32,440 nt of DNA, taken from contig VBKI01000047.1 of assembly GCA_005879535.1 (NCBI GenBank), forward strand, positions 265,749 through 298,188, read 5' to 3'. A program made the position numbers and the translations under genes. This document shows, one piece after another, positions 3,780-21,279 of the stretch. This DNA is from Deltaproteobacteria bacterium. Lineage in GTDB: Bacteria; Myxococcota; Myxococcia; Myxococcales; 40CM-4-68-19. How positions within the stretch are numbered: position 1 is the first letter of the stretch; each line of letters begins with the position of its first letter. The notes beneath the pieces are model-generated. The model was not told where the DNA came from. It searched no databases and saw only the letters and a list, made by a program, of their open reading frames with translations.

Positions 3780-4220
3780 CTACGCGCCGCGGAGCGCCTT
3801 CGAGAAGAGCAGCGCGCGCCTTTCGAACTGGCGTTGCTCGTAGAAGGCGTGCACTTCCTTGCGATGGAGGGCGGAGTCGAGCTCGAGATGGCGGCAGCCC
3901 ACCGCGAGCGCGAGGTCCTCGATCCTCTGCATCAAGAGGGTCGCGATGCCGTGGCAGCGATGGTTCCCGTCGACGACCAGCTCGTCGAGATGGCCAATCG
4001 TGCCTTCCTGCCGCAGGCTCATCTTCAGCGTCAGCGAGGCGAAGCCGACCACGCGCGATCTGAGCTCGGCGCAGACGTATCGCTGCCGCGGAGACAGAAG
4101 CCCTCGCCCGAAGACGCCTCGGAGAGTCGCTTCGTCGAAGACTTCGTTCGGCCAGTGCTGGCGCAACAGATCGAGAACGGCAGGAAAGTCCTGCGAACCA
4201 CAACTGCGTATCGTCGCCAC
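3780..4220 (-). CDS. GNAT-family N-acetyltransferase
   Basis: A 146-residue single-domain GNAT protein, which transfers an acetyl group from acetyl-CoA to an amine. The core strand-loop-helix reads LDELVVDGNHRCHGIATLLM (residues 78-97); RCHGIA at 88-93 fits the R/Q-x-x-G-x-G/A pyrophosphate-binding loop. The C-terminal HAFYEQRQFERRALLFSK is the usual closing strand. I chose the GTG at 4220 because a run of G followed by AAG lies about six bases upstream and the protein then starts at the first GNAT strand (VATIRSCGSQD). The frame stays open for many codons upstream, but that part has no homology. Substrate unknown. It is probably co-transcribed with the downstream lyase-family gene. Confidence 0.88.
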   Translation of the reverse strand: MATIRSCGSQDFPAVLDLLRQHWPNEVFDEATLRGVFGRGLLSPRQRYVCAELRSRVVGFASLTLKMSLRQEGTIGHLDELVVDGNHRCHGIATLLMQRIEDLALAVGCRHLELDSALHRKEVHAFYEQRQFERRALLFSKALRGA

Positions 4221-4309
4221 TCTGCTTCCCCCCAGGGCCCGCGGTGAGATGCGGGAGCAGCAAGACCGGTTCAGCGAGATCGACTCGCATACCGCGGTTG
4301 CAAGTCTGC

Positions 4310-4328
4310 CGCAATACTGTAAATTGCG
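4310..4328. promoter_or_regulatory. Inverted repeat in a divergent intergenic region
   Basis: CGCAAT and ATTGCG are separated by seven bases in a locally AT-richer patch between the divergent acetyltransferase (start 4220) and TolB-like/TPR (start 4398) genes. TTGCAA at 4299-4304 followed 16 bases later by TAAATT is a weak -35/-10 pair pointing to the TPR gene. It could be an operator overlapping that promoter; sequence evidence only. Confidence 0.25.
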
Positions 4329-4397
4329 CAGCGGACACGAGTCGTCCCGTCGGCCCGCACAGGGTGTTAGGCTCCGCCCCGTGGGAACGGAGGCCGG

Positions 4398-11376: not shown

Positions 11377-13197
11377 TCAGCGCGTCGATCGGCACGAGCC
11401 GTCTTCAGACCATCCCTCGCTGCCCACGCAATGGTGGCAGAAGAACAGACCGTCAGGATCATACTTTCGCTTGATCTCCGACAGCCGCGCGTAATTCTCG
11501 CCCCAGAACTCCCGCTGCCAGTCGCTCTCGAAATAGTCCGTTTCGTTGAGGTAGCTGCCGGCGCCCGGCGTCGCCGCGCGGATGACCTTCATTGCGGCGC
11601 CGACTCGTGCCTTGGCGGATTCGCCTTCGGTCATGTCCGGCTCGTGGCCCGGTACGCCTGGATACGCGTTCGCCGCCGCGGCGATGATGATCAAGGCCGC
11701 GGCCTTGAAGACGGCAGGGTTCATCGAGATTTCCCGGCCGCGCTCCCTCGCCTCCGCAGAAGCGCCGGCCTGGCCCTTGTTGAAGTGCAGCGCGACTGAC
11801 CAGTGTCGCGACGCATCGAAGAGCGTGGCCGCAAACCCCGATGCGTTCGCGGGCTCGAACAGATCGAGCGGAACCCAGCGCGATTGATAGGCGTACCAGT
11901 ACGCCGATACCTGCCCGCCATCGCCGGCCCACCACCAGAAGCGGTCAGGAGGTTGATCGGGCCGAGGATCCGTCTCGATGGCGCCCGGAATGTTCTTGAG
12001 ATATGCGGCGTCCCACATCCGATTGCCCGGCATCTCGACGAGCTCGGCCTTCATCGTCAGGGTGTCGCGATTCGCATCGACCCATTCGCGAAACGGGCGC
12101 CACACCTCGCCCGCTTGCTTCGCGCTCATGCCCTCGAACACGAGCGAGAGATCGAGCGAGTTGCTCCGCCGGACCTTCACCTGCTCGCCCCAATGCTCGT
12201 TGCTCAACTCCTCGCGGTAGAAGAGGAGAAAGTGCTCGAGCAGATCCTTGAAGGCGGCATCGGTCTTCGCGACGATGCTGCCGTCGATTGCGCCGAAGTA
12301 GTCCGGGAGCGGATGCGTTCGCAGCGTCACCCGCGTGACGACTCCAAACGTACCGCCGCCCCCGCCGCGCAGAGCCCAGAAGAGATCCTGGTTCTGGCAA
12401 CCGTTTGCGACCAGCACCCTGCCGTCGGCGGTGACCACTTCCGCCTCGAGCATGCTCGCCGCAGCGATTCCATATTTCTTCGACCAGCTTCCGAACCCGC
12501 CGCCTTGCATGAATCCGCCAGCGGCTCCGACCGTGGTGCAGCCGCCTCCCTGGACGTAACGGCCGTGCTTGACGGTCACCTCCTGGTACGCCTCGAGCCA
12601 GCGCGTCCCCGCTTCGAGAGTCACCGCCGGTGCGGGCTCCGCCGCTCCGCAACCCTGGGGGATGAACGCGTCGCGGACGTCGACCTTGCGCATCTGGTGC
12701 GTCCACACCAGCAACGAATCGGGCGCGTTGGAGCGCCCGAGGTAGTCGTGTCCCGTCCCCTTGATCACCAGGCGCAGTCGAGATCGCCGGGCGAATTTCA
12801 CCGCCGCGACGACGTCCGACGCATCTTTCGCGACGACTGCATAAGCGCTGGAGGCGGCGGTCCACGCGCCGAGCCAGCCGGTGGACTCCGTGCCGCCCGG
12901 CTGATCCTGGAGATAGAACGGGTTCGTCGAATTGCGGATGGCCGTGGCGCAGGCCTCGCCAGCCGCGTCGCTCCTGCACGGCGCGAACGGCGACTGGGGT
13001 TGCTCGAGCTTGCCGCGGAGGCTCGCTCCGAATTTCTGCCAATCGTCCCGCGTCGGCCAGCATGGCTGTCCCGGCGCGCAGCGACAGAGGGGGGCGGCTT
13101 CGGGCTGAGGAGCAGGGCGGCTCGTGGCGCAGCCTGCAGCGAAGAGCGTCGCAACCAGCGCCCGTGTCACGCCGCCTGAGCCGGAGGTGCCGGGCAT
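11377..13197 (-). CDS. Exported FAD-linked oxidase, BBE-like, probable lipoprotein
   Basis: A 606-residue flavoprotein with the FAD-binding PCMH domain at about 110-290 and a C-terminal berberine-bridge-type segment (KYDPDGLF near the end). KGTGHDY places His150, and YVQGGGCTTVG places Cys220, at the positions that in berberine-bridge-type oxidases bind FAD through two covalent links; bicovalent FAD is therefore predicted. The N-terminus (ALVATLFAAGCATS) has a lipobox-like AAGC with Cys23 followed by a proline-rich linker, suggesting a lipid-anchored periplasmic protein, although it could instead be a plain signal peptide. Family members oxidise sugars, alkaloids or alcohols with O2; the substrate is unknown. 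The ATG at 13197 is kept because the in-frame GTG at 13170 would make the signal region very short. Confidence 0.88.
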   Translation of the reverse strand: MPGTSGSGGVTRALVATLFAAGCATSRPAPQPEAAPLCRCAPGQPCWPTRDDWQKFGASLRGKLEQPQSPFAPCRSDAAGEACATAIRNSTNPFYLQDQPGGTESTGWLGAWTAASSAYAVVAKDASDVVAAVKFARRSRLRLVIKGTGHDYLGRSNAPDSLLVWTHQMRKVDVRDAFIPQGCGAAEPAPAVTLEAGTRWLEAYQEVTVKHGRYVQGGGCTTVGAAGGFMQGGGFGSWSKKYGIAAASMLEAEVVTADGRVLVANGCQNQDLFWALRGGGGGTFGVVTRVTLRTHPLPDYFGAIDGSIVAKTDAAFKDLLEHFLLFYREELSNEHWGEQVKVRRSNSLDLSLVFEGMSAKQAGEVWRPFREWVDANRDTLTMKAELVEMPGNRMWDAAYLKNIPGAIETDPRPDQPPDRFWWWAGDGGQVSAYWYAYQSRWVPLDLFEPANASGFAATLFDASRHWSVALHFNKGQAGASAEARERGREISMNPAVFKAAALIIIAAAANAYPGVPGHEPDMTEGESAKARVGAAMKVIRAATPGAGSYLNETDYFESDWQREFWGENYARLSEIKRKYDPDGLFFCHHCVGSEGWSEDGSCRSTR

Positions 13198-13239: not shown

Positions 13240-14688
13240 TCAGAAGTCGTATGTCATTCCCAACGAGAAGGCCTGCGGGCTCGTTCCCGTGAAGCAGCCG
13301 GTCCCGTTGCCGATCAGGCCGATCCCGGGACCCGCGCTCGCCGTCGACGGGCCGCTGCCGTCCTTGCAGTCCCACGTCACGCCGTGCCCGCCCGGTCCAA
13401 GCGCGAAGTGCGCCGCGGAGCTGTTTCTCATGTGGGCGTAGCTCAGGATGATCGTCGTCTTCGGGTTGAACCAGTGCCGGACGCCGACCGTGAGCATATC
13501 GGCGGTGTTGTCCACGGGGCCCGCGCCCGGATCCCCGGGCGTGTTGGCGGCATGCGCCCATCCGCCCATCACGTCGTCGTTCGGGCCCACCTTCTGCAGG
13601 GCGGACAGGTAGTACCCGTCACGCTGGCGCTCGTTGAAGGCGGAAGCGTCGTTTCGGCGCATCTCCTCGAAAATGCCGGCAACCGTCGTTCCGGTCGGCT
13701 CGAACGTGTATTTCGCGCCGAACTTCCAGGCGTATTCGTTGGCGGTGCCGACGACCGACGTCCCGGCAGGCGTGGTTTGGCCCGCGTCTCCGGTCCGGTT
13801 CGTTGTCTTGTGCATCTCGTGGGCGAGGATCAGCTTGAGGCCGAACCCGTGCCACTCGGCGGAGAAGCCGTACGCATCGCCGAAGGCGCCGTCGTTGCAG
13901 GGCCCCGCGTTGCCGCCGGAGCAGGCGTTCTCGCCGATGGCGTACCCGATGTTGTCCTCGAAGCGGTTCTGGCCGGGCGACCAGATCGCGTTGAGGCGGA
14001 ATCCCATCAGGTCCGGGGACTCGTACCAGACGGCGTGCGGCAGGCGTGCATCGAACTCGGTGCGGTTGTCGCCGCCGGTATTCCCCATGATGCTGTTGTA
14101 GTCGCCTGGCGTGTCGGCGAGGAAGTCGAAGTCCGCGGTCACGGATTTGTACGGAGTGTCGTTCTTGCCGAGCTTCAGCGCGCCGAACGGTGTGCTGACG
14201 CCGACGAAGCTGTTTCGCGAGGCGAGCGCGCCCGTCACGGCGGTGTTGGCGGGATTGATGGTGTCGTTGCTCCCGTTCGGCTTGCTGCCAGGGGTTGCGG
14301 TCACGTCCACCTGTGCCTCGAGCTGGAAGACCGCCTGGAAATCCCTGCCAACCAGGTCGTGATAACCCCTGACGCCGAAGCGAGAGAGGTTGCTGGAGAG
14401 GTCGTGAAGCCAGCGCAAGTTGCCCGCGGGCGGCGTGCAGGGAGAGGCGGCGGTGATGCACGGCGCCGTGGTCAGTTCCTGGTTCCCGATGTCGTAGGAG
14501 ACGTTGACCCGCCCGTAGACGGTGAAGTCGAACGGCTTGTGCGGCGGAGGTGGCTGCTTCACGTCGGAAGGGACGGCCTCACCCGTGGGCGTGGGATTCT
14601 GCGGCTCATTCGCCGGCTGCGCCAAAGCAAGGCTCGCGACCGCGAACGGACAAAGCAGAGAGAAGGTCACGATTGCAAAACGACGCAT
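13240..14688 (-). CDS. Gram-negative general porin
   Basis: A 482-residue outer-membrane beta-barrel. Signal peptide: RRFAIVTFSLLCPFAVASLA with cleavage near ALA-QP, followed by a proline-rich linker. The barrel begins FDFTVYGRVNVSYDIGN and continues with classic trimeric-porin strands (SRFGVRGYHDLVGRDFQAVF, RNSFVGVSTPFGALKLGKND, YLSALQKVG, TVGVRHWFNPKTTIILSY). It ends on phenylalanine (LGMTYDF), as expected for recognition by the BAM machinery. GGGGGAAA lies just before the ATG at 14688. It is divergent from nirB, so a part in nitrite or nitrate entry is conceivable (inference only). It is more likely a general diffusion channel. Length is slightly above the usual 350-400 because of long loops. 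Confidence 0.92.
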   Translation of the reverse strand: MRRFAIVTFSLLCPFAVASLALAQPANEPQNPTPTGEAVPSDVKQPPPPHKPFDFTVYGRVNVSYDIGNQELTTAPCITAASPCTPPAGNLRWLHDLSSNLSRFGVRGYHDLVGRDFQAVFQLEAQVDVTATPGSKPNGSNDTINPANTAVTGALASRNSFVGVSTPFGALKLGKNDTPYKSVTADFDFLADTPGDYNSIMGNTGGDNRTEFDARLPHAVWYESPDLMGFRLNAIWSPGQNRFEDNIGYAIGENACSGGNAGPCNDGAFGDAYGFSAEWHGFGLKLILAHEMHKTTNRTGDAGQTTPAGTSVVGTANEYAWKFGAKYTFEPTGTTVAGIFEEMRRNDASAFNERQRDGYYLSALQKVGPNDDVMGGWAHAANTPGDPGAGPVDNTADMLTVGVRHWFNPKTTIILSYAHMRNSSAAHFALGPGGHGVTWDCKDGSGPSTASAGPGIGLIGNGTGCFTGTSPQAFSLGMTYDF

Positions 14689-14742
14689 TGGTTTCCCCCT
14701 TGCGTTACGGCAGGCGCGCACCTGCATGGGCGCAACGCGGCC

Positions 14743-14771
14743 ATTACAGGGATCGGGGGTATTCCTGTCAG
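14743..14771 (-). promoter_or_regulatory. Sigma-70-type promoter for the porin, with overlapping inverted repeat
   Basis: On the minus strand CTGACA (14766-14771) and TGTAAT (14743-14748) each match the sigma-70 consensus at five of six bases, with an optimal 17-base spacer. The start of transcription would fall near 14736, about 48 bases before the porin ATG. TTACAGG (14744-14750) and CCTGTCA (14764-14770) form an imperfect inverted repeat overlapping both promoter boxes, a good position for a repressor. Confidence 0.55.
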
Positions 14772-15128
14772 TTGGACCAGCGTCGGAACGACGACCGGCT
14801 GGGCGCCATCGAATCATTGGTGGCGCGAACATTATCGATTTCGTTTGCAGGGACCTGTCGTCGGTCCGATGGACGGCGGAGCCGCCACGAGGCAGAGCCA
14901 CCACGGCTCCTCCGTATTCGTCGGCTCGCGCCGGGAATCACACATCCTTGTCGCCTCCCGCCCCGCCCGCTTCGATTGGCGCGCGGTTCCACAGAGGAAC
15001 CGGAGCCCTCGAAAAGGCGCGCGGGGTCCAACGAAACCGAAGGTATCCGGGAAAGAAACGACAGGAATGTCGCGCGGCATGCATGCCGCGAACCCTCTTC
15101 TTCGAGTGCGAACGCGCTGCGTCAGCGC
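14772..15128. other. Non-coding leader/control region between porin and nirB
   Basis: I see no convincing gene here; the plus frame that runs into nirB stays open, but its translation has no family character. Structures present: a 7-bp stem pairing 14878-14884 with 14904-14910, and a tighter hairpin at 14984-15002 (CGGTTCC, loop ACAGA, GGAACCG). If transcription starts at the sigma-54 candidate, these lie upstream of the transcript and would be DNA sites. If an upstream promoter exists, they would be leader RNA. Confidence 0.4.
15073..15090. promoter_or_regulatory. 18-base perfect palindrome upstream of nirB
   Basis: CGCGGCATGCATGCCGCG reads the same on both strands. Its centre lies about 74 bases upstream of the start predicted from the sigma-54-like element at 15129-15144, close to where enhancer-binding activators bind. 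It does not match the NtrC consensus (TGCACC-N5-GGTGCA). It could be the site of a nitrite- or nitrogen-responsive regulator. Confidence 0.4.
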
Positions 15129-15144
15129 TGGCATCGCGCTTGCT
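15129..15144 (+). promoter_or_regulatory. Sigma-54-type -24/-12 promoter candidate for nirB
   Basis: TGGCA at 15129-15133 and TTGCT at 15140-15144 place GG and GC at exactly the required spacing. Against TGGCACG-N4-TTGCW the only mismatches are the sixth and seventh positions. The transcript would begin near 15155, leaving a 5' leader of about 36 bases before ATG 15191. Control by RpoN is common for nitrogen-assimilation genes, which agrees with the function of the operon. Confidence 0.5.
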
Positions 15145-15190
15145 CCGATCCGTCGTTCATGCGGATGCGGGTCTGGGGCGGATGGTGCCG

Positions 15191-17731
15191 ATGACGAAGA
15201 AGAGTCTCGTCGTGATCGGCAACGGGATGGTGGGGCACAAGTTTCTCGAGCTGCTGCTCGAGGACAGGCATCGCGATGATTGGCAGGTTGTCACCTTCTG
15301 CGAGGAGCCACGGTTCGCGTACGACCGAGTGAATCTCTCCAGCTTCTTCAGCGGAAAGACTGCGGCGGACCTTTCGCTCGTCGAGCCCGGCCTGTACGAC
15401 GACGCGGGGATCACCGTCCACCGGGCCGACCGCGCCGCAGCCATCGACCGCGAAGGCAAGGCGGTGACCTCCGAGCGCGGGAGGGCCGTACCCTACGACA
15501 AGCTGGTGCTGGCGACGGGCTCTTCACCGCTGGTTCCGCCCATACAGGGGCGCGAGACGCAAGGCTGCTTCGTCTACCGCACCATCGACGATCTGGAGGC
15601 GATCCGCGCCTACGCGGCGCAGGCCCGCGTCGGAGTGGTGATCGGTGGCGGACTCCTCGGTCTCGAGGCAGCCAACGCGCTCAACCACATGGGTCTCGAG
15701 ACGCACGTGGTCGAGTTCGCGCCGCGGCTGATGGCCATGCAGGTGGACGAGGGCGGCGGGCAGATCCTGCGCGCGAAGATCGAGTCGCTCGGGGTCTCGG
15801 TGCACACCGGCAAGCACACGACGGAGATCGTTTCGCTCGAAGGACGCGTTGCGGAGATCCGCTTCGCCGACGGTGGCGCGCTGGCTGCGGACATGGTGGT
15901 GTTCTCCGCGGGCATTCGTGCGCGAGACGAGATCGCGCGCGAATGCGGCCTTTCGATCGGCGAGCGCGGAGGAGTGGTCATCGACGATCGCTGCTGCACT
16001 TCGGATCCCGACATCCTCGCCATCGGCGAGTGCGCCTACTACCGGGGCCGCACGTACGGCCTGGTGGGGCCGGGCTACCAGATGGCCCGCACAGCGGTCT
16101 CGACGCTGACGGGCGGGGAGGAAAGGCTCGGCACCTTCGACATGAGCACCAAGCTCAAGCTCCTCGGCGTGGATGTCGGGAGCTTCGGCGACGCTCACGC
16201 GACGCGGCCGGGCAGCCGCGTCCTCTCCTTCACCGACTCGGTGGCCGGCATCTACAAGAAGCTGGTGGTGAGCGCCGATCGGCAGCGCCTCCTGGGCGGC
16301 GTCCTGGTGGGCGACGCCTCGTCCTACGGCCAGCTGCTGCAGCTGACGCAGAACCAGGTCCCTTTGCCGGCGCATCCCGAGCAGCTCATCCTGCCGCAGC
16401 CTTCCGGTGCCAGACTGGCAGGGCTCGGTGTCGATGCGTTGCCCGATGCCGCCACCATCTGCACTTGCCAGAACGTGCCCAAGGGGATCATCTGCCGTGC
16501 CATCTGCGAGCAGCAGCTCGGTTCGGTGGGAGCGGTCAAGTCGGCAACCCGGGCCGGCACTGGCTGCGGCTCCTGCACGCCGCTGCTTGGGGAGATCCTC
16601 GGCGCCGAGATGAAGAAGGCCGGCAAGGCGCTTTCGAATCATCTCTGCGAGCATTTCCCTCGCTCGCGGCAGGAGCTCTACCACCTCGTCCGGCTGCATC
16701 GGATTCGCGACTTCGACGAGCTGATCGCGAAGCACGGGCGAGGCAACGGATGCGAGATCTGCAAGCCCGCCATCGCGTCGATCCTCGCCTCGACCTGGAA
16801 CGAGCACGTGCTCGACAACAAGCGTCTTCCGCTGCAAGACACCAATGACCGCTTCCTCGCCAACATCCAGCGGGACGGAACCTACTCCGTCGTGCCTCGC
16901 GTTCCGGGCGGCGAGATCACTCCCGATCAGCTGATCGCCCTAGGCCGCGCCGCGAAAAAATTCGGGCTCTACTCGAAGATCACCGGCGCGCAGCGCGTGG
17001 ATCTCTTCGGTGCGCGCCTCGAGCAGCTGCCGGACATCTGGCGCGATCTGATCGCCGCCGGCTTCGAGTCCGGGCATGCCTACGGAAAAGCGCTGCGCAC
17101 GGTGAAGTCGTGCGTGGGCAACACCTGGTGCCGCTTCGGGGTGCAGGACTCCGTCTCGATGGCCATCCGCCTGGAGAACCGGTACAAGGGCCTGCGAGCG
17201 CCGCACAAGCTGAAGTCCGCCGTATCCGGCTGCGCGCGCGAGTGCGCCGAGGCGCAGGGCAAGGACTTCGGCGTCATCGCCACCGAGAAAGGCTACAACC
17301 TGTATCTCTGCGGCAACGGCGGCATGAAGCCGCAGCACGCCCAGCTCTTCGCCACGGATCTCGACGAAGACCAGGTCATCCGGTACCTGGATCGCTTCCT
17401 CATGTTCTACGTCCGCACCGCCGACCGGCTGCAGCGGACGGCGGGCTGGTTCAACAACCTCGAAGGTGGAATCGAGTACCTGCGCAAGGTGCTGATCGAG
17501 GATTCGCTCGGCATCTGCGCGGAGCTGGAAGCGGAGATGGCGCACATCGTCGCCACCTACCAATGCGAGTGGAAGAGCACCGTGGAGGATCCGGCGAAGC
17601 TGGCCCGGTTCCGCACCTTCGTGAACTCGCCGGCACCGGATCCGAGTCTAGTCTCCATCCGTTCCCGCGCGCAGCACCGGCCTGCGACGTGGGCGGAGAA
17701 GTCGCACCTCCTGCAGCAGGAGCTCGGATGA
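15191..17731 (+). CDS. nirB: Assimilatory NADH-nitrite reductase, large subunit
   Basis: An 846-residue cytoplasmic enzyme that reduces nitrite to ammonium with NAD(P)H. The N-terminal FAD site is LVVIGNGMVG and the second dinucleotide site is VVIGGGLLGLEAANAL. A BFD-like [2Fe-2S] domain has C424, C426, C459 and C462. The siroheme/[4Fe-4S] domain has C641 and C647 (CVGNTWC) with C681 and C685 (CARECAE), matching the Cys-x5-Cys and Cys-x3-Cys ligand pattern. Length equals E. coli NirB. The ATG at 15191 (MTKKSLVVIGNGM) is chosen over an in-frame ATG at 15182. The frame is open further upstream but without homology. The stop overlaps the nirD start (ATGA). Confidence 0.98.
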   Translation: MTKKSLVVIGNGMVGHKFLELLLEDRHRDDWQVVTFCEEPRFAYDRVNLSSFFSGKTAADLSLVEPGLYDDAGITVHRADRAAAIDREGKAVTSERGRAVPYDKLVLATGSSPLVPPIQGRETQGCFVYRTIDDLEAIRAYAAQARVGVVIGGGLLGLEAANALNHMGLETHVVEFAPRLMAMQVDEGGGQILRAKIESLGVSVHTGKHTTEIVSLEGRVAEIRFADGGALAADMVVFSAGIRARDEIARECGLSIGERGGVVIDDRCCTSDPDILAIGECAYYRGRTYGLVGPGYQMARTAVSTLTGGEERLGTFDMSTKLKLLGVDVGSFGDAHATRPGSRVLSFTDSVAGIYKKLVVSADRQRLLGGVLVGDASSYGQLLQLTQNQVPLPAHPEQLILPQPSGARLAGLGVDALPDAATICTCQNVPKGIICRAICEQQLGSVGAVKSATRAGTGCGSCTPLLGEILGAEMKKAGKALSNHLCEHFPRSRQELYHLVRLHRIRDFDELIAKHGRGNGCEICKPAIASILASTWNEHVLDNKRLPLQDTNDRFLANIQRDGTYSVVPRVPGGEITPDQLIALGRAAKKFGLYSKITGAQRVDLFGARLEQLPDIWRDLIAAGFESGHAYGKALRTVKSCVGNTWCRFGVQDSVSMAIRLENRYKGLRAPHKLKSAVSGCARECAEAQGKDFGVIATEKGYNLYLCGNGGMKPQHAQLFATDLDEDQVIRYLDRFLMFYVRTADRLQRTAGWFNNLEGGIEYLRKVLIEDSLGICAELEAEMAHIVATYQCEWKSTVEDPAKLARFRTFVNSPAPDPSLVSIRSRAQHRPATWAEKSHLLQQELG

Positions 17732-18108
17732 ACGCGGCCGCTCGCGTGGCTCGCGAGTGCGAGGCGTGGGAGGACGTCTGCCCCCTCGACGACGTCCTTC
17801 CGGGAACCGGTGTGTGCGCGATGGTCGCCCGCCAGCAGGTGGCGCTGGTGAGGACCGCTTCCCCCGACGCCCTCTACGCGATCGGCAACTTCGACCCCTT
17901 CAGCAAGGCGTTCGTCCTCTCGCGCGGGATCGTCGGGGACCGGGCCGGTGTCCCGAAGATTGCCTCGCCGATCTACAAGCAGAGCTTCGATCTGCGCACC
18001 GGCGAATGCCTCGACGACGCACAGGTGCGCGTCCCCACTTACGACGTCCGTGTCGAGCAGGGGCGGATTCTCGTCTACCGCGAGCCGCGCCGGATCGGAA
18101 CGCGCTGA
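17728..18108 (+). CDS. nirD: Nitrite reductase, small subunit
   Basis: A 126-residue partner of NirB with a Rieske-like fold. It contains NFDPFSKAFVLSRGIVGD and IASPIYKQSFDLRTGECLDD, the strands typical of assimilatory NirD. The Cys/His ligands of a true Rieske cluster are absent, as in E. coli NirD, so it should carry no iron-sulfur centre. Its ATG at 17728 overlaps the nirB stop by four bases, implying translational coupling and a matched supply of the two subunits. Confidence 0.96.
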   Translation: MNAAARVARECEAWEDVCPLDDVLPGTGVCAMVARQQVALVRTASPDALYAIGNFDPFSKAFVLSRGIVGDRAGVPKIASPIYKQSFDLRTGECLDDAQVRVPTYDVRVEQGRILVYREPRRIGTR

Positions 18109-18127: not shown

Positions 18128-18958
18128 GTGGAGCACGAAACCATCGCAGGGATCGCAGCGGCAGCGCGGGCCAAGGCGAGCCTTCTTCGCCACGGCCCAC
18201 GGCAGTACCTGATCCTCTCCGCGCTCGCCGGCGCGTACGTAGGACTGGGCATCGTGCTCATCTTCGCCATCGGGGCACCGTTGCAGGCGGCCGGCTCGGG
18301 AGCGACGAAGGCGGTGATGGGCGCGTCGTTCGGAGTTGCGCTGACCCTGGTCATCTTCGCCGGGTCGGAGCTGTTCACCGGCAACAACCTGGTGATGACG
18401 GTGGGAGCGCTGTCGCGCACCGTCGCGCCGGGGGCGCTCGGCAAGGTGTGGGCGGCAAGCTTCATCGGGAACTTGGCGGGGTCGATGCTGCTCGCCCTGG
18501 CGGTTGCCGTTTCCGGTGTGCTGAGCAAGGCGCCCGCGAAGGAGTTCGTGCTCGGCGTAGTGGCGGCGAAGATGGCTGCGCCCGCGGTGGAGCTCTTCTT
18601 CCGCGGCGTCCTCTGTAACGCGCTGGTGTGCCTCGCGGTCTGGATGGGGCTTCGCACCAAGGACGAAACGGCGCGGCTGGTGCTGATCTTCTGGTGCCTC
18701 TTCGCCTTCATCGGCGCCGGCTTCGAGCACAGCGTGGCGAACATGACGCTGCTCGCCATCGGGCTCTTCCTGCCGCACGACCCCAATCTCGTGTCCTGGG
18801 TGGGCTTCGCCAGGAACCTGGGCGTGGTGACTCTCGGGAACATCGTCGGCGGAGCGCTGCTGATCGGGCTGCCGTACTGGTACGTAGCGCAGGGGGAGCG
18901 GCGGATGTTGGCCGTCCGGCCGGTGGAGGAGGAAGCCCGCGCCGCGGTGGCGGGTTAG
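18128..18958 (+). CDS. nirC: Formate/nitrite transporter family channel (NirC-like)
   Basis: A 276-residue inner-membrane protein of the FNT family with six hydrophobic helices. It should admit nitrite (or export it) as a pentameric channel. The pore signature FEHSVANM, with the central conserved histidine, is present, as are GSELFTGNNLVM in the broken second helix and FRGVLCNALVCLAVWM in the fourth to fifth helix region. The GTG start at 18128 is preceded at five bases by GAGGAGG (18116-18122), a near-perfect ribosome site, and no ATG is better placed. Its place directly after nirD fixes nitrite as the likely substrate rather than formate. Confidence 0.93.
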   Translation: MEHETIAGIAAAARAKASLLRHGPRQYLILSALAGAYVGLGIVLIFAIGAPLQAAGSGATKAVMGASFGVALTLVIFAGSELFTGNNLVMTVGALSRTVAPGALGKVWAASFIGNLAGSMLLALAVAVSGVLSKAPAKEFVLGVVAAKMAAPAVELFFRGVLCNALVCLAVWMGLRTKDETARLVLIFWCLFAFIGAGFEHSVANMTLLAIGLFLPHDPNLVSWVGFARNLGVVTLGNIVGGALLIGLPYWYVAQGERRMLAVRPVEEEARAAVAG

Positions 18959-18960
18959 CC

Positions 18961-18972
18961 GCGGCATGCCGC
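18961..18972. promoter_or_regulatory. 12-base palindrome at the hemD-like start codon
   Basis: GCGGCATGCCGC is a perfect palindrome that contains the ATG at 18966. It shares both arms (GCGGCA and TGCCGC) with the 18-base palindrome upstream of nirB, where four extra bases separate them. As RNA it could fold over the start codon; as DNA it could be a second, shorter regulator site. This region is GC-rich, so chance is a real alternative. Confidence 0.25.
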
Positions 18973-19793
18973 AGAAGCTGAACGGACAGCGCATCGCGCT
19001 CTTCGAGTCCCGGCTCGCCGAGGAGATCTCCGCGCTCGTGCGTCGCTGCGGAGGCGTGCCGGTCTGCGTTCCGGCGGTGCGCGAGCATCGCCGCTCCGCG
19101 GGACGCGAGATGGCCGCGGTGCTCGACCGGGTACGGGCCGAGCCGTCCCCGGTATTCGTCTTTTCCACCGGAGTGGGAGCTTCCGCTCTGTTTGGCGAAG
19201 CGCGCGCGCTGGGACGGGAGGCGGAACTGCGCGATGCCATCCTGCGCGGTCTCGCGGTGTGCCGCGGGCCCAAGCCGGTCGCGGCGCTGCACAAGGAAGG
19301 CATCACAGCTTCGATCCGGGCGCGCTCTCCGTATACGACGGAGGAATTCATCGACGCTCTGGCGCAGGTGGACGTCCGGAGACGGATGGTGGTGCTCACC
19401 CACTACGGCGAGAAGAACCCACCACTCGTCGTCGCGCTCGTGTCTCGCGGGGCGCGACTCTTCGAACTGATGCTCTACGAGTGGGAGCTGCCAGAGGACA
19501 CGGGGCCGCTGGCCCGCGTCATCGAGGAGCTGGAAGGAGGAGCGTTCGCTGCCGCCGCATTCACCACGCAGATCCAGGCGCGGAATCTGATGGCGGTCGC
19601 GGGTGATGTTGGTCGCAAGGAGGGCCTGCTCGCTGCTCTGCGGTCGCGCGTCCTCGTCGCCGCCGTCGGTCCAACGTGCGCGCGGGTGCTCAAGGAGCTG
19701 GGCATTCCGCCACAGGTCATGCCCGAGTCTCCAAAGATGGCCGCCATGATCAGAGCGCTGGTCGGGCGTCTCGCCGAAGGAAGTCCCCAGTGA
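18966..19793 (+). CDS. hemD: Uroporphyrinogen-III synthase-like protein (HEM4 family)
   Basis: A 275-residue protein with the two-lobed HEM4 fold. It begins LNGQRIALFESRLAEEISALVRRCGGVP and contains VFVFSTGVGASALF, VVLTHYGEKNP and VAAVGPTCARVLKELG. This enzyme cyclises hydroxymethylbilane to uroporphyrinogen III, the branch point toward siroheme. Similar genes placed after nirBD in other bacteria are annotated as uroporphyrinogen-III synthase. Sequence conservation in this family is low, so catalytic identity rests on fold and context: it is followed by the two other enzymes needed to make siroheme. The ATG at 18966 lies seven bases after the nirC stop. The end overlaps the next start (GTGA). 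Confidence 0.85.
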   Translation: MPQKLNGQRIALFESRLAEEISALVRRCGGVPVCVPAVREHRRSAGREMAAVLDRVRAEPSPVFVFSTGVGASALFGEARALGREAELRDAILRGLAVCRGPKPVAALHKEGITASIRARSPYTTEEFIDALAQVDVRRRMVVLTHYGEKNPPLVVALVSRGARLFELMLYEWELPEDTGPLARVIEELEGGAFAAAAFTTQIQARNLMAVAGDVGRKEGLLAALRSRVLVAAVGPTCARVLKELGIPPQVMPESPKMAAMIRALVGRLAEGSPQ

Positions 19794-20368
19794 CGGAATC
19801 GGTAGTCGCATATCCAGCGTTCTTGAAACTCGCGAATCGCCCCGTGCTGCTCGTCGGCGGCGGAGGCGTGGCAGCGGGCAAGCTGACCGGACTCCTCGAA
19901 GCCGGCGCCCGGGTCACCGTAGTGGCGCCGCGGATCGGTACCGACCTCGAGCGGCCTCGCGTAACGCTCTTGCGGCGGCCCTTCGAGACGTCCGATCTGA
20001 ATGGCTGCTGGTTCGTGGTGGCGGCGGCTACGCCCCAAGTGAACCGGGAAGTCGCACAGGCAGCGGAGACGCGGCAGATCTTCGTCAACGCGGTCGACGA
20101 CGCGGACGCGGCCAGCGCCTGGCTGGGCGGCGTGGTGCGCAAGGGCGGAGTGACCGTGGCAGTCTCGACCGGCGGGTGCGCGCCCGCCTTGGCGGGTCTC
20201 TTGCGCGAGGCGCTCGAGGGCTTGCTGCCGGAGGATCTCGGCGAGTGGACCGTGGCTGCAGAGCGATTGCGCGCGCGTTGGCGAGCGGACGGGGTGCCGA
20301 TCGCCGCGCGCCGGCCGCTCCTCTTGCGCGCCCTCGATGAAATGTACGCGACGAAGGGCTTGCCATGA
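19790..20368 (+). CDS. Precorrin-2 dehydrogenase / sirohydrochlorin ferrochelatase
   Basis: A 192-residue protein equal to the N-terminal half of CysG and to yeast Met8p. It oxidises precorrin-2 with NAD+ and may insert iron to finish siroheme. The NAD-binding loop is VLLVGGGGVAAGKLTGLLEAGA, followed by VNREVAQAAETRQIFVNAVDD (with the catalytic Asp region) and VAVSTGGCAPALAGLLRE. The GTG start overlaps the preceding stop by four bases and AAGGAAG lies about six bases upstream. It is a standalone module, separate from the methyltransferase encoded next, rather than a fused CysG. Confidence 0.93.
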   Translation: MTESVVAYPAFLKLANRPVLLVGGGGVAAGKLTGLLEAGARVTVVAPRIGTDLERPRVTLLRRPFETSDLNGCWFVVAAATPQVNREVAQAAETRQIFVNAVDDADAASAWLGGVVRKGGVTVAVSTGGCAPALAGLLREALEGLLPEDLGEWTVAAERLRARWRADGVPIAARRPLLLRALDEMYATKGLP

Positions 20369-21279
20369 GAAGTCCGGGGTTGGTGTCGCTGGTCGGCGCA
20401 GGGCCGGGAGATCCGGAGTTGCTCACGGTCCGTGCGGTGGCGCGCCTTCAGGCGGCCGATCTGGTTCTCTACGACGCGCTGGTCGACCCGGCGACACTGC
20501 GCCACGCCGCGCATGCGCGCTGGGCCTATGTCGGCAAGCGCGCCGGGCGGCATTCCATTTCACAGGAGACGATCGAGCGAATCATGATTCGCCGTGCGCT
20601 GCGCGGCGAACGCGTGGTCCGCCTCAAGAGCGGCGACCCATTCGTATTCGGCCGCGGTGGCGAAGAAGCGCTGGCGCTGGCCGCGGCCGGCGTTCCTTGC
20701 GAGGTCGTTCCCGGCGTATCCGCGGCAGTGGCGGGGCCAGCACTCGCCGGCATTCCCGTCACTCATCGCGGTACCGTCTCCGCATTCCTGGTCGTTTCGG
20801 GTCACGCCGAGACGGCCTTCGCGCCGGCGTTGGGATCGCTTGCACCGGGAGCGGCGACCGTCGTGGTGCTGATGGGCATCGCGACCCGCGCCGCCATCGT
20901 CGCGCTCTTGCTCTCCCGAGGGTGGAATCCGCAGACGCGCGCCGCGGTGCTGCTCTCCGCCTCGACTGCCGAGGCGCGTTCCTGGCGTGGGACGCTGGCC
21001 ACGTTAGGCGCTTGCGAGCTGCCCGAGATGTATTCCGATTTACCCGGGCTGCTCGTGATCGGCGCGACGGTTGCGGTCGCCGAGCAGCTCGAGGCGCTCG
21101 CCATTGGGCAGGTCAGCTACCCGCGCGCGAGCCAGCCGCCGGCTCCACAACCCGTCAGTCGTCCTCGCCGTCGTCTTTTGCCCCCGCCGGACCGAATGAC
21201 GCCCACGTCCCTTTCGTCGGGCGGTAGTCGCCTGTCCGCTTCGACCAGTCGCAGACGCCGCTCGGGAAGATCGCATTGA
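20365..21279 (+). CDS. cobA: Uroporphyrinogen-III C-methyltransferase with C-terminal extension
   Basis: A SAM-dependent enzyme that methylates uroporphyrinogen III twice to give precorrin-2. The signatures are present: VSLVGAGPGDPELLTVRAV, VRLKSGDPFVFGRGGEE, VPGVSAAVAGPALAGIPVTHRG and TVVVLMG. The catalytic domain closes near residue 250 (LLVIGATVAVAEQLE). The final 50 or so residues are Pro/Arg/Ser-rich and unlike the family. They arise where the frame runs on, antisense, through the last 125 bases of the convergent DUF6351 gene. The extension is therefore likely a lost stop codon, or an assembly frameshift, rather than a functional domain. The ATG overlaps the previous stop (ATGA), with AAGGG six bases upstream. 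Confidence 0.93.
   Translation: MRSPGLVSLVGAGPGDPELLTVRAVARLQAADLVLYDALVDPATLRHAAHARWAYVGKRAGRHSISQETIERIMIRRALRGERVVRLKSGDPFVFGRGGEEALALAAAGVPCEVVPGVSAAVAGPALAGIPVTHRGTVSAFLVVSGHAETAFAPALGSLAPGAATVVVLMGIATRAAIVALLLSRGWNPQTRAAVLLSASTAEARSWRGTLATLGACELPEMYSDLPGLLVIGATVAVAEQLEALAIGQVSYPRASQPPAPQPVSRPRRRLLPPPDRMTPTSLSSGGSRLSASTSRRRRSGRSH

Follow-up and report, generated by a model that had tools for sequence, protein, structure and literature searches.

A conserved inverted repeat beside a probable chance palindrome upstream of a myxococcal nirB may mark a nitrogen regulon of a NifA-like activator, a variant on the known activators

The classical nitrogen activators that work at sigma-54 promoters are NifA and NtrC. 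The motif of NifA is TGT-N10-ACA, and the typical targets of NtrC are amtB, urea uptake, nitrite reductase and glutamine synthetase. The regulator that we propose for the nirB locus described here is encoded on another contig (C98) of the same genome (G000). Like NifA (TIGR01817), it is a GAF-AAA+-HTH enhancer-binding protein, with Pfam matches to GAF, Sigma54_activat and HTH_8 together in one protein, and NifA is its closest NCBIfam model. Its best solved relative is 9qq6, a 'Nif-specific regulatory protein', over residues 73-565. Unlike NifA, it scored 520.8 bits, just under the cut-off of 528.85, and in none of the 22 genomes that carry the regulator, some of which are incomplete, was nifH found above its cut-off (best 222.5 of 394.35 bits, G076). 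Also, the motif associated with the regulator, GACR-N4-TGTC, appears to differ from that of NifA. With NtrC (NR(I), TIGR01818) the regulator would share the type of its predicted targets. However, it has a GAF domain instead of a receiver domain, for which Pfam gave no match in this protein, it reached 347.4 bits to the ntrC model (cut-off 558.6), and its DNA motif seems to be a different one. An earlier note on this DNA had suspected a regulator other than NtrC, and the score and the domain composition support this as probable.

The nearest published parallel that we found is DVU1949 of Desulfovibrio vulgaris, a single-component enhancer-binding protein with predicted control of nitrogen metabolism and transport operons (PMC4641369). 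Its gene is found together with DVU1952 and, in four of the genomes there, with iorAB (PMC4641369). As for the regulator here, a single-component activator is paired with predicted nitrogen targets. In contrast, the DVU1949 gene does not lie with amtB, and the likeness is one of description; the text consulted gives no motif (PMC4641369). In the open-licence literature searched, neither the present regulator nor its motif was found; the motif strings matched only works titled on other subjects.

The window, the whole stretch of 32,440 nucleotides that was analysed, contains a nitrite reductase operon on the plus strand. It starts with nirB for the large subunit (15191-17731; TIGR02374, 1081 bits, cut-off 578.35) and continues with nirD for the small subunit (17728-18108; Rieske_2), a nirC-type formate/nitrite transporter gene (18128-18958), a hemD-like uroporphyrinogen-III synthase gene (18966-19793), a frame of the sirohaem dehydrogenase type corresponding to the N-terminal part of CysG (19676-20368, the true start probably being further in) and a tetrapyrrole methylase gene of the uroporphyrinogen methyltransferase type (20365-21279). 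On the other side, the regulatory region is bounded by a divergent porin gene on the minus strand (13240-14688), for which Pfam Porin_4 matched the open frame 13240-14904 and the ATG at 14688 was chosen by eye. A sigma-70 scan of positions 14700-15300 revealed no promoter. The same region has two short terminator-like hairpins on the minus strand, one of which is the inverted repeat described below. In the window, neither Rfam (at its gathering threshold) nor a tRNA search gave a hit. The distribution of close nirB relatives is patchy, with 2 of the 12 genomes of the family (E<=1e-100) and 8 of the 195 genomes of the phylum (E<=1e-150), suggesting that the operon has been gained or lost.

A sigma-54 promoter is predicted at 15129-15144 on the plus strand. 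The sequence TGGCATCGCGCTTGCT has the GG and GC elements of the -24/-12 type in the correct spacing (TGGCA-N6-TTGC). The pattern TGGCAYN5TTGCW was matched 7 times in the genome and 5 times in the reversed control, so that a match alone proves little. The promoter is kept, however, in all four close nirB orthologues: it reads TGGCACCGCGCTTGCT in G010, where NirB is 86% identical and 15 of the 16 promoter bases are the same, and TGGCACCGCACTTGCT and again TGGCATCGCGCTTGCT in G149 and G150, respectively, both with NirB 79% identical. For nirB, a sigma-54 promoter preceded by an activator site, as suggested in the earlier note, is supported by comparison of these sequences. In three Sorangium and one Polyangiaceae upstream regions (NirB 71% and 64% identical), drawn from 80 named nirB loci, neither a sigma-54 promoter by pattern nor a palindrome longer than 10 bases was detected.

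Upstream of the promoter lies the inverted repeat ACGACAGGAATGTCGC at 15058-15073, which fits GACR-N4-TGTC and is the proximal candidate activator site (centre at about -89.5 relative to the predicted transcript start at 15155). A weaker distal copy, CCTCCGTATTCGTCGG, is located at 14909-14924 (centre at about -238.5); neither site is assigned to a strand. When the region was compared with G010, 13 of 16 bases were identical in the repeat, 14 of 16 in the distal copy and 15 of 16 in the promoter, compared with 139 of 252 across the region as a whole. The G010 counterpart of the proximal repeat is ACGACGAGATTGTCGG, and the distances between repeat and promoter are nearly equal in the two genomes (56 and 57 nt). 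The same motif was found before nirB as AGGACAAATTTGTCGC and AGGACAAAATTGTCGC in G149 and as CCGACGGAATTGTCGC and GCGACAGATTTGTCGT in G150. Among the orthologues the half-sites are kept and the middle is variable, as would be expected of the site of a dimer. Across the 12 family genomes, CGAC-N6-GTCG with the promoter after it was seen only before nirB in G000 and G010, which are the only two with a close NirB; in the reversed control there was one match too, in G010. The pattern did not detect the repeat in four genomes with a more distant NirB (38-56% identical), of which G187 has a sigma-54-like sequence.

The repeat touches a perfect palindrome of 18 bases, CGCGGCATGCATGCCGCG, that had drawn attention to the region and is present at exactly 15073-15090. 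Its distance was given as about 74 bases upstream of the nirB start. From the centre at 15081.5 this holds for the predicted transcript start, which is 73.5 bases away, and not for the probable nirB ATG at 15191, which is 109.5 bases away. It had also been said that chance would hardly produce such a palindrome in a region this large. The window contains three palindromes of 18 bases, at 11691, 15073 and 29916, and among 300 first-order Markov copies of the window, which had a mean of about 0.55 palindromes of at least 18 bases, 42% contained one or more, so that this is not upheld. For the intergenic region of about 500 bases alone, scaling of the Markov result gives about 0.01 expected palindromes, a value for a region that was chosen after the fact. 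A search of the 5.16 Mb genome for further exact copies found none beyond the one known; with up to two mismatches, two further places appeared, against one in the reversed control.

The palindrome also failed in the alignment of the nirB upstream regions, the check by which the earlier note had proposed to refute it. In G010, the closest orthologue, 9 of 18 aligned bases are identical, against 139 of 252 in the surroundings, and 4 of the 9 pairs are still complementary. No palindrome of at least 10 bases exists in the 400 bases upstream of the G010 nirB. Within the stretches examined in G149 and G150 none is longer than 12 bases; the longest upstream of nirB has 12 bases in G149, where it is itself an activator site, and 10 bases in G150. 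As a conserved operator the palindrome was rejected, being neither kept upstream of the orthologues nor exactly repeated in the genome. It might still be an operator in its own right that is bound by a different regulator, is peculiar to this genome and gives nirB a second input. Such a local operator would not need to be conserved, and a perfect palindrome in an intergenic position between activator site and promoter would suit it, but the palindrome is compatible with chance in the window, lacks a second exact copy in the genome and is not kept in G010, G149 or G150, which makes this reading quite unlikely.

The role of a sigma-54 activator site, which the earlier note had proposed for the palindrome, was not supported; it is the conserved repeat directly upstream that is the candidate. 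We considered whether the palindrome could serve the same activator as a second site of variant sequence. Read side by side, CGGCA-N4-TGCCG and CGACA-N4-TGTCG differ at a single, symmetric position of each half, and the palindrome abuts the proximal site. However, the changed bases are those strongly kept in the collected sites, and with a matrix made from 19 such sites (see below) the palindrome scored -7.8 and ranked 261 of 32425 window positions. Its centre is 16 bp from that of the proximal site, compared with the 30-bp spacing seen elsewhere, and it is absent from G010. We regard a variant site as very improbable. Most likely, the palindrome is a chance feature and incidental to the regulation of nirB.

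Sites of the conserved type were found beside the gene of the NifA-like regulator. Relatives of this regulator occur in 22 of the 195 phylum genomes (E<=1e-140), 20 of them being at least 66% identical, and all four genomes with a close NirB carry it. Five genomes (G001, G002, G004, G006 and G008) have the regulator without a close nirB, and it is therefore not specific to nirB. Around the 22 regulator genes the pattern [GT]ACA-N4-TGT[CA] was present in 32 copies at 15 loci, whereas 0.42 copies were expected from mononucleotide shuffles. Since 11 of these 15 loci come from one family, they are not independent. At the G006, G010 and G149 loci, where the frame starts at the end of the locus, 180 bases each were scanned, and in G150 no site was seen beside the regulator gene in the 680 bases examined.

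The neighbours of the regulator gene are nitrogen genes. In G000 the site lies between amtB and the divergent regulator gene, and urease genes are found on the opposite side. In G001 and G008 amtB is likewise divergent from the regulator, and urease genes close to the regulator were recognised with Pfam in G149 and G150 and by eye in G001. At all ten large-genome loci examined (L227-L236) a glutamine-synthetase-like frame is divergent from the regulator, which Pfam confirmed for the two that were tested. The conserved repeat may instead be bound by another enhancer-binding protein, for example an NtrC-type response regulator. The genome offers candidates, with 24 enhancer-binding-protein matches above 100 bits, and six of those tested scored 427-471 bits to the ntrC model. 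Yet none of the 18 that were run against NCBIfam reached the ntrC cut-off of 558.6, and it is the NifA-like gene that the motif adjoins, in 15 of 22 loci. Another activator at this repeat is thus rather unlikely, and the NifA-like protein is the preferred candidate.

The motif was then scored at promoters that had no part in its definition. The held-out matrix was built from all 19 distinct regulator-adjacent sites, 16 of which had made up the first matrix; the nirB, urtA and cynS sites were excluded, and P values for the best site in each promoter region were obtained from 2000 Markov copies. The consensus, taken from the first matrix, is CCGACAAATTTGTCGG (16 bp). With the 19-site matrix, the proximal repeat ranked 3 and the distal copy 5 of 32425 window positions. 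The best site upstream of nirB had a P of 0.072 in the window, 0.009 in G010, 0.0015 in G149 and 0.002 in G150. For urtA the values were 0.0035 in G000 and 0.0005 in both G149 and G150, for amtB of G010 0.003 and for hemD-cynS of G150 0.0005. The amtB site of G000 is a member of the training set and does not count as held-out, and urtA of G008, which a peptide pattern failed to locate, was not scored.

The nirB site of the window is the weakest of these nine and scored below the threshold of 7 that was used for the others. With the first matrix, 89.7 kb taken from elsewhere in the genome contained 7 sites scoring as high, about one per 13 kb, and in the window itself TCGACCAATTGGTCAA at 1877-1892, inside open frames, scored 8.2 compared with 7.4 for the nirB site. 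The window's own site would not convince alone, and the case for it rests on the relatives.

A fixed spacing was observed between the sites. At the regulator loci, 25 of 72 site pairs are exactly 30 bp apart (first matrix). At the held-out promoters 12 of 37 pairs are 29-31 bp apart, whereas 5000 random placements yielded 0.48 on average and never more than 4. A distance of 30 bases corresponds to about three helical turns, which would place two dimers on the same face of the DNA. At the nirB promoter of the window, no good partner was found at this distance; 30 bp upstream of the proximal site there is only the degenerate CCAACGAAACCGAAGG (15028-15043, no strand assigned), which scored -4.3 with the first matrix and is at most a half-site.

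The extent of the putative regulon was explored with patterns. A looser pattern was matched 49 times in five genomes and 18 times in the reversed control, and 30 loci among these matches were inspected. Ten of the 49 precede nitrogen genes, namely nirB (G000, G010, G149, G150), amtB (G000, G010), urtA (G000, G149, G150) and hemD-cynS with its cyanate lyase (G150); the remaining matches we take to be mostly background. The strict pattern of motif plus promoter had 33 matches in 29 of the 195 phylum genomes and none in the reversed control. Only three of these are nitrogen promoters and most others stand before other kinds of genes, as judged by eye from predicted frames. The pattern alone therefore does not define the regulon.

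What was observed is that the sequences are conserved, that the motif recurs both at nitrogen genes and next to the gene of the regulator, and that its sites are paired at 30 bp in relatives; from this we infer binding, activation and a nitrogen signal. Under nitrogen shortage, the GAF-domain protein encoded on C98 would become active and would bind the repeat at 15058-15073 and the weaker distal copy at 14909-14924. By looping of the DNA, its AAA+ domain would contact the sigma-54 polymerase and open the promoter at 15129-15144, leading to transcription of the nirBDC-sirohaem operon. Through this protein and motif, amtB, urtA and hemD-cynS would also be turned on, as would glutamine synthetase in relatives, the regulator perhaps acting in place of NtrC. 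That a NifA-like activator drives the operon through GACR-N4-TGTC and the sigma-54 promoter, with the palindrome being incidental, has in our estimate a probability of roughly 0.7.

We give even odds to the wider view that in this lineage an activator of the NifA family has left nitrogen fixation and become the general regulator of nitrogen shortage that replaces NtrC, with a changed DNA specificity (CCGACAAATTTGTCGG) and a fixed arrangement in which paired sites are exactly 30 bp, or about three helical turns, apart and many promoters have two such pairs. The neighbouring repeat would mark a nitrogen regulon that can be tested, in place of a chance palindrome. In it, a NifA-like protein would control how ammonium, urea, cyanate and nitrite are used and how glutamine is made in genomes with no recognisable nifH. 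This bears on how nitrogen control is divided between NifA-like and NtrC-like activators, and the 16-bp motif with its strict spacing rule could provide a means to recognise nitrogen promoters of this phylum.

Some other sigma-54-like arrangements were noticed during the searches. At L141-L148 and L150 (family f4, genus g22) a recurring layout was seen in which GACAnncATGTC stands 53-56 nt before TGGCAT/C-N5-TTGCT, with none in the reversed control. It often precedes short frames with the look of secreted proteins and possibly belongs to another activator with a related site. In G000, GACACGCTTGTC and the sigma-54-like TGGCACCGGGCTTGCT occur just after a frame that by eye resembles an RtcB-like RNA ligase (L218, about 4200-4330; C31:26203-26314), and downstream only a short frame is visible. 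Two further loci of this genome, L117 (C28:35725-35740) and L122 (C66:54618-54633), have similar sigma-54-like promoters with upstream repeats of the GTGACA/TTGTCAC type. Both precede similar frames, by eye GspC-like of type II secretion, and the one on C66 comes just after the gene of an enhancer-binding protein. At L123 (G000, C70:69327-69342), the sigma-54-like TGGCATCCCGCTTGCT is found before a frame that by eye resembles a heat-shock sigma factor.
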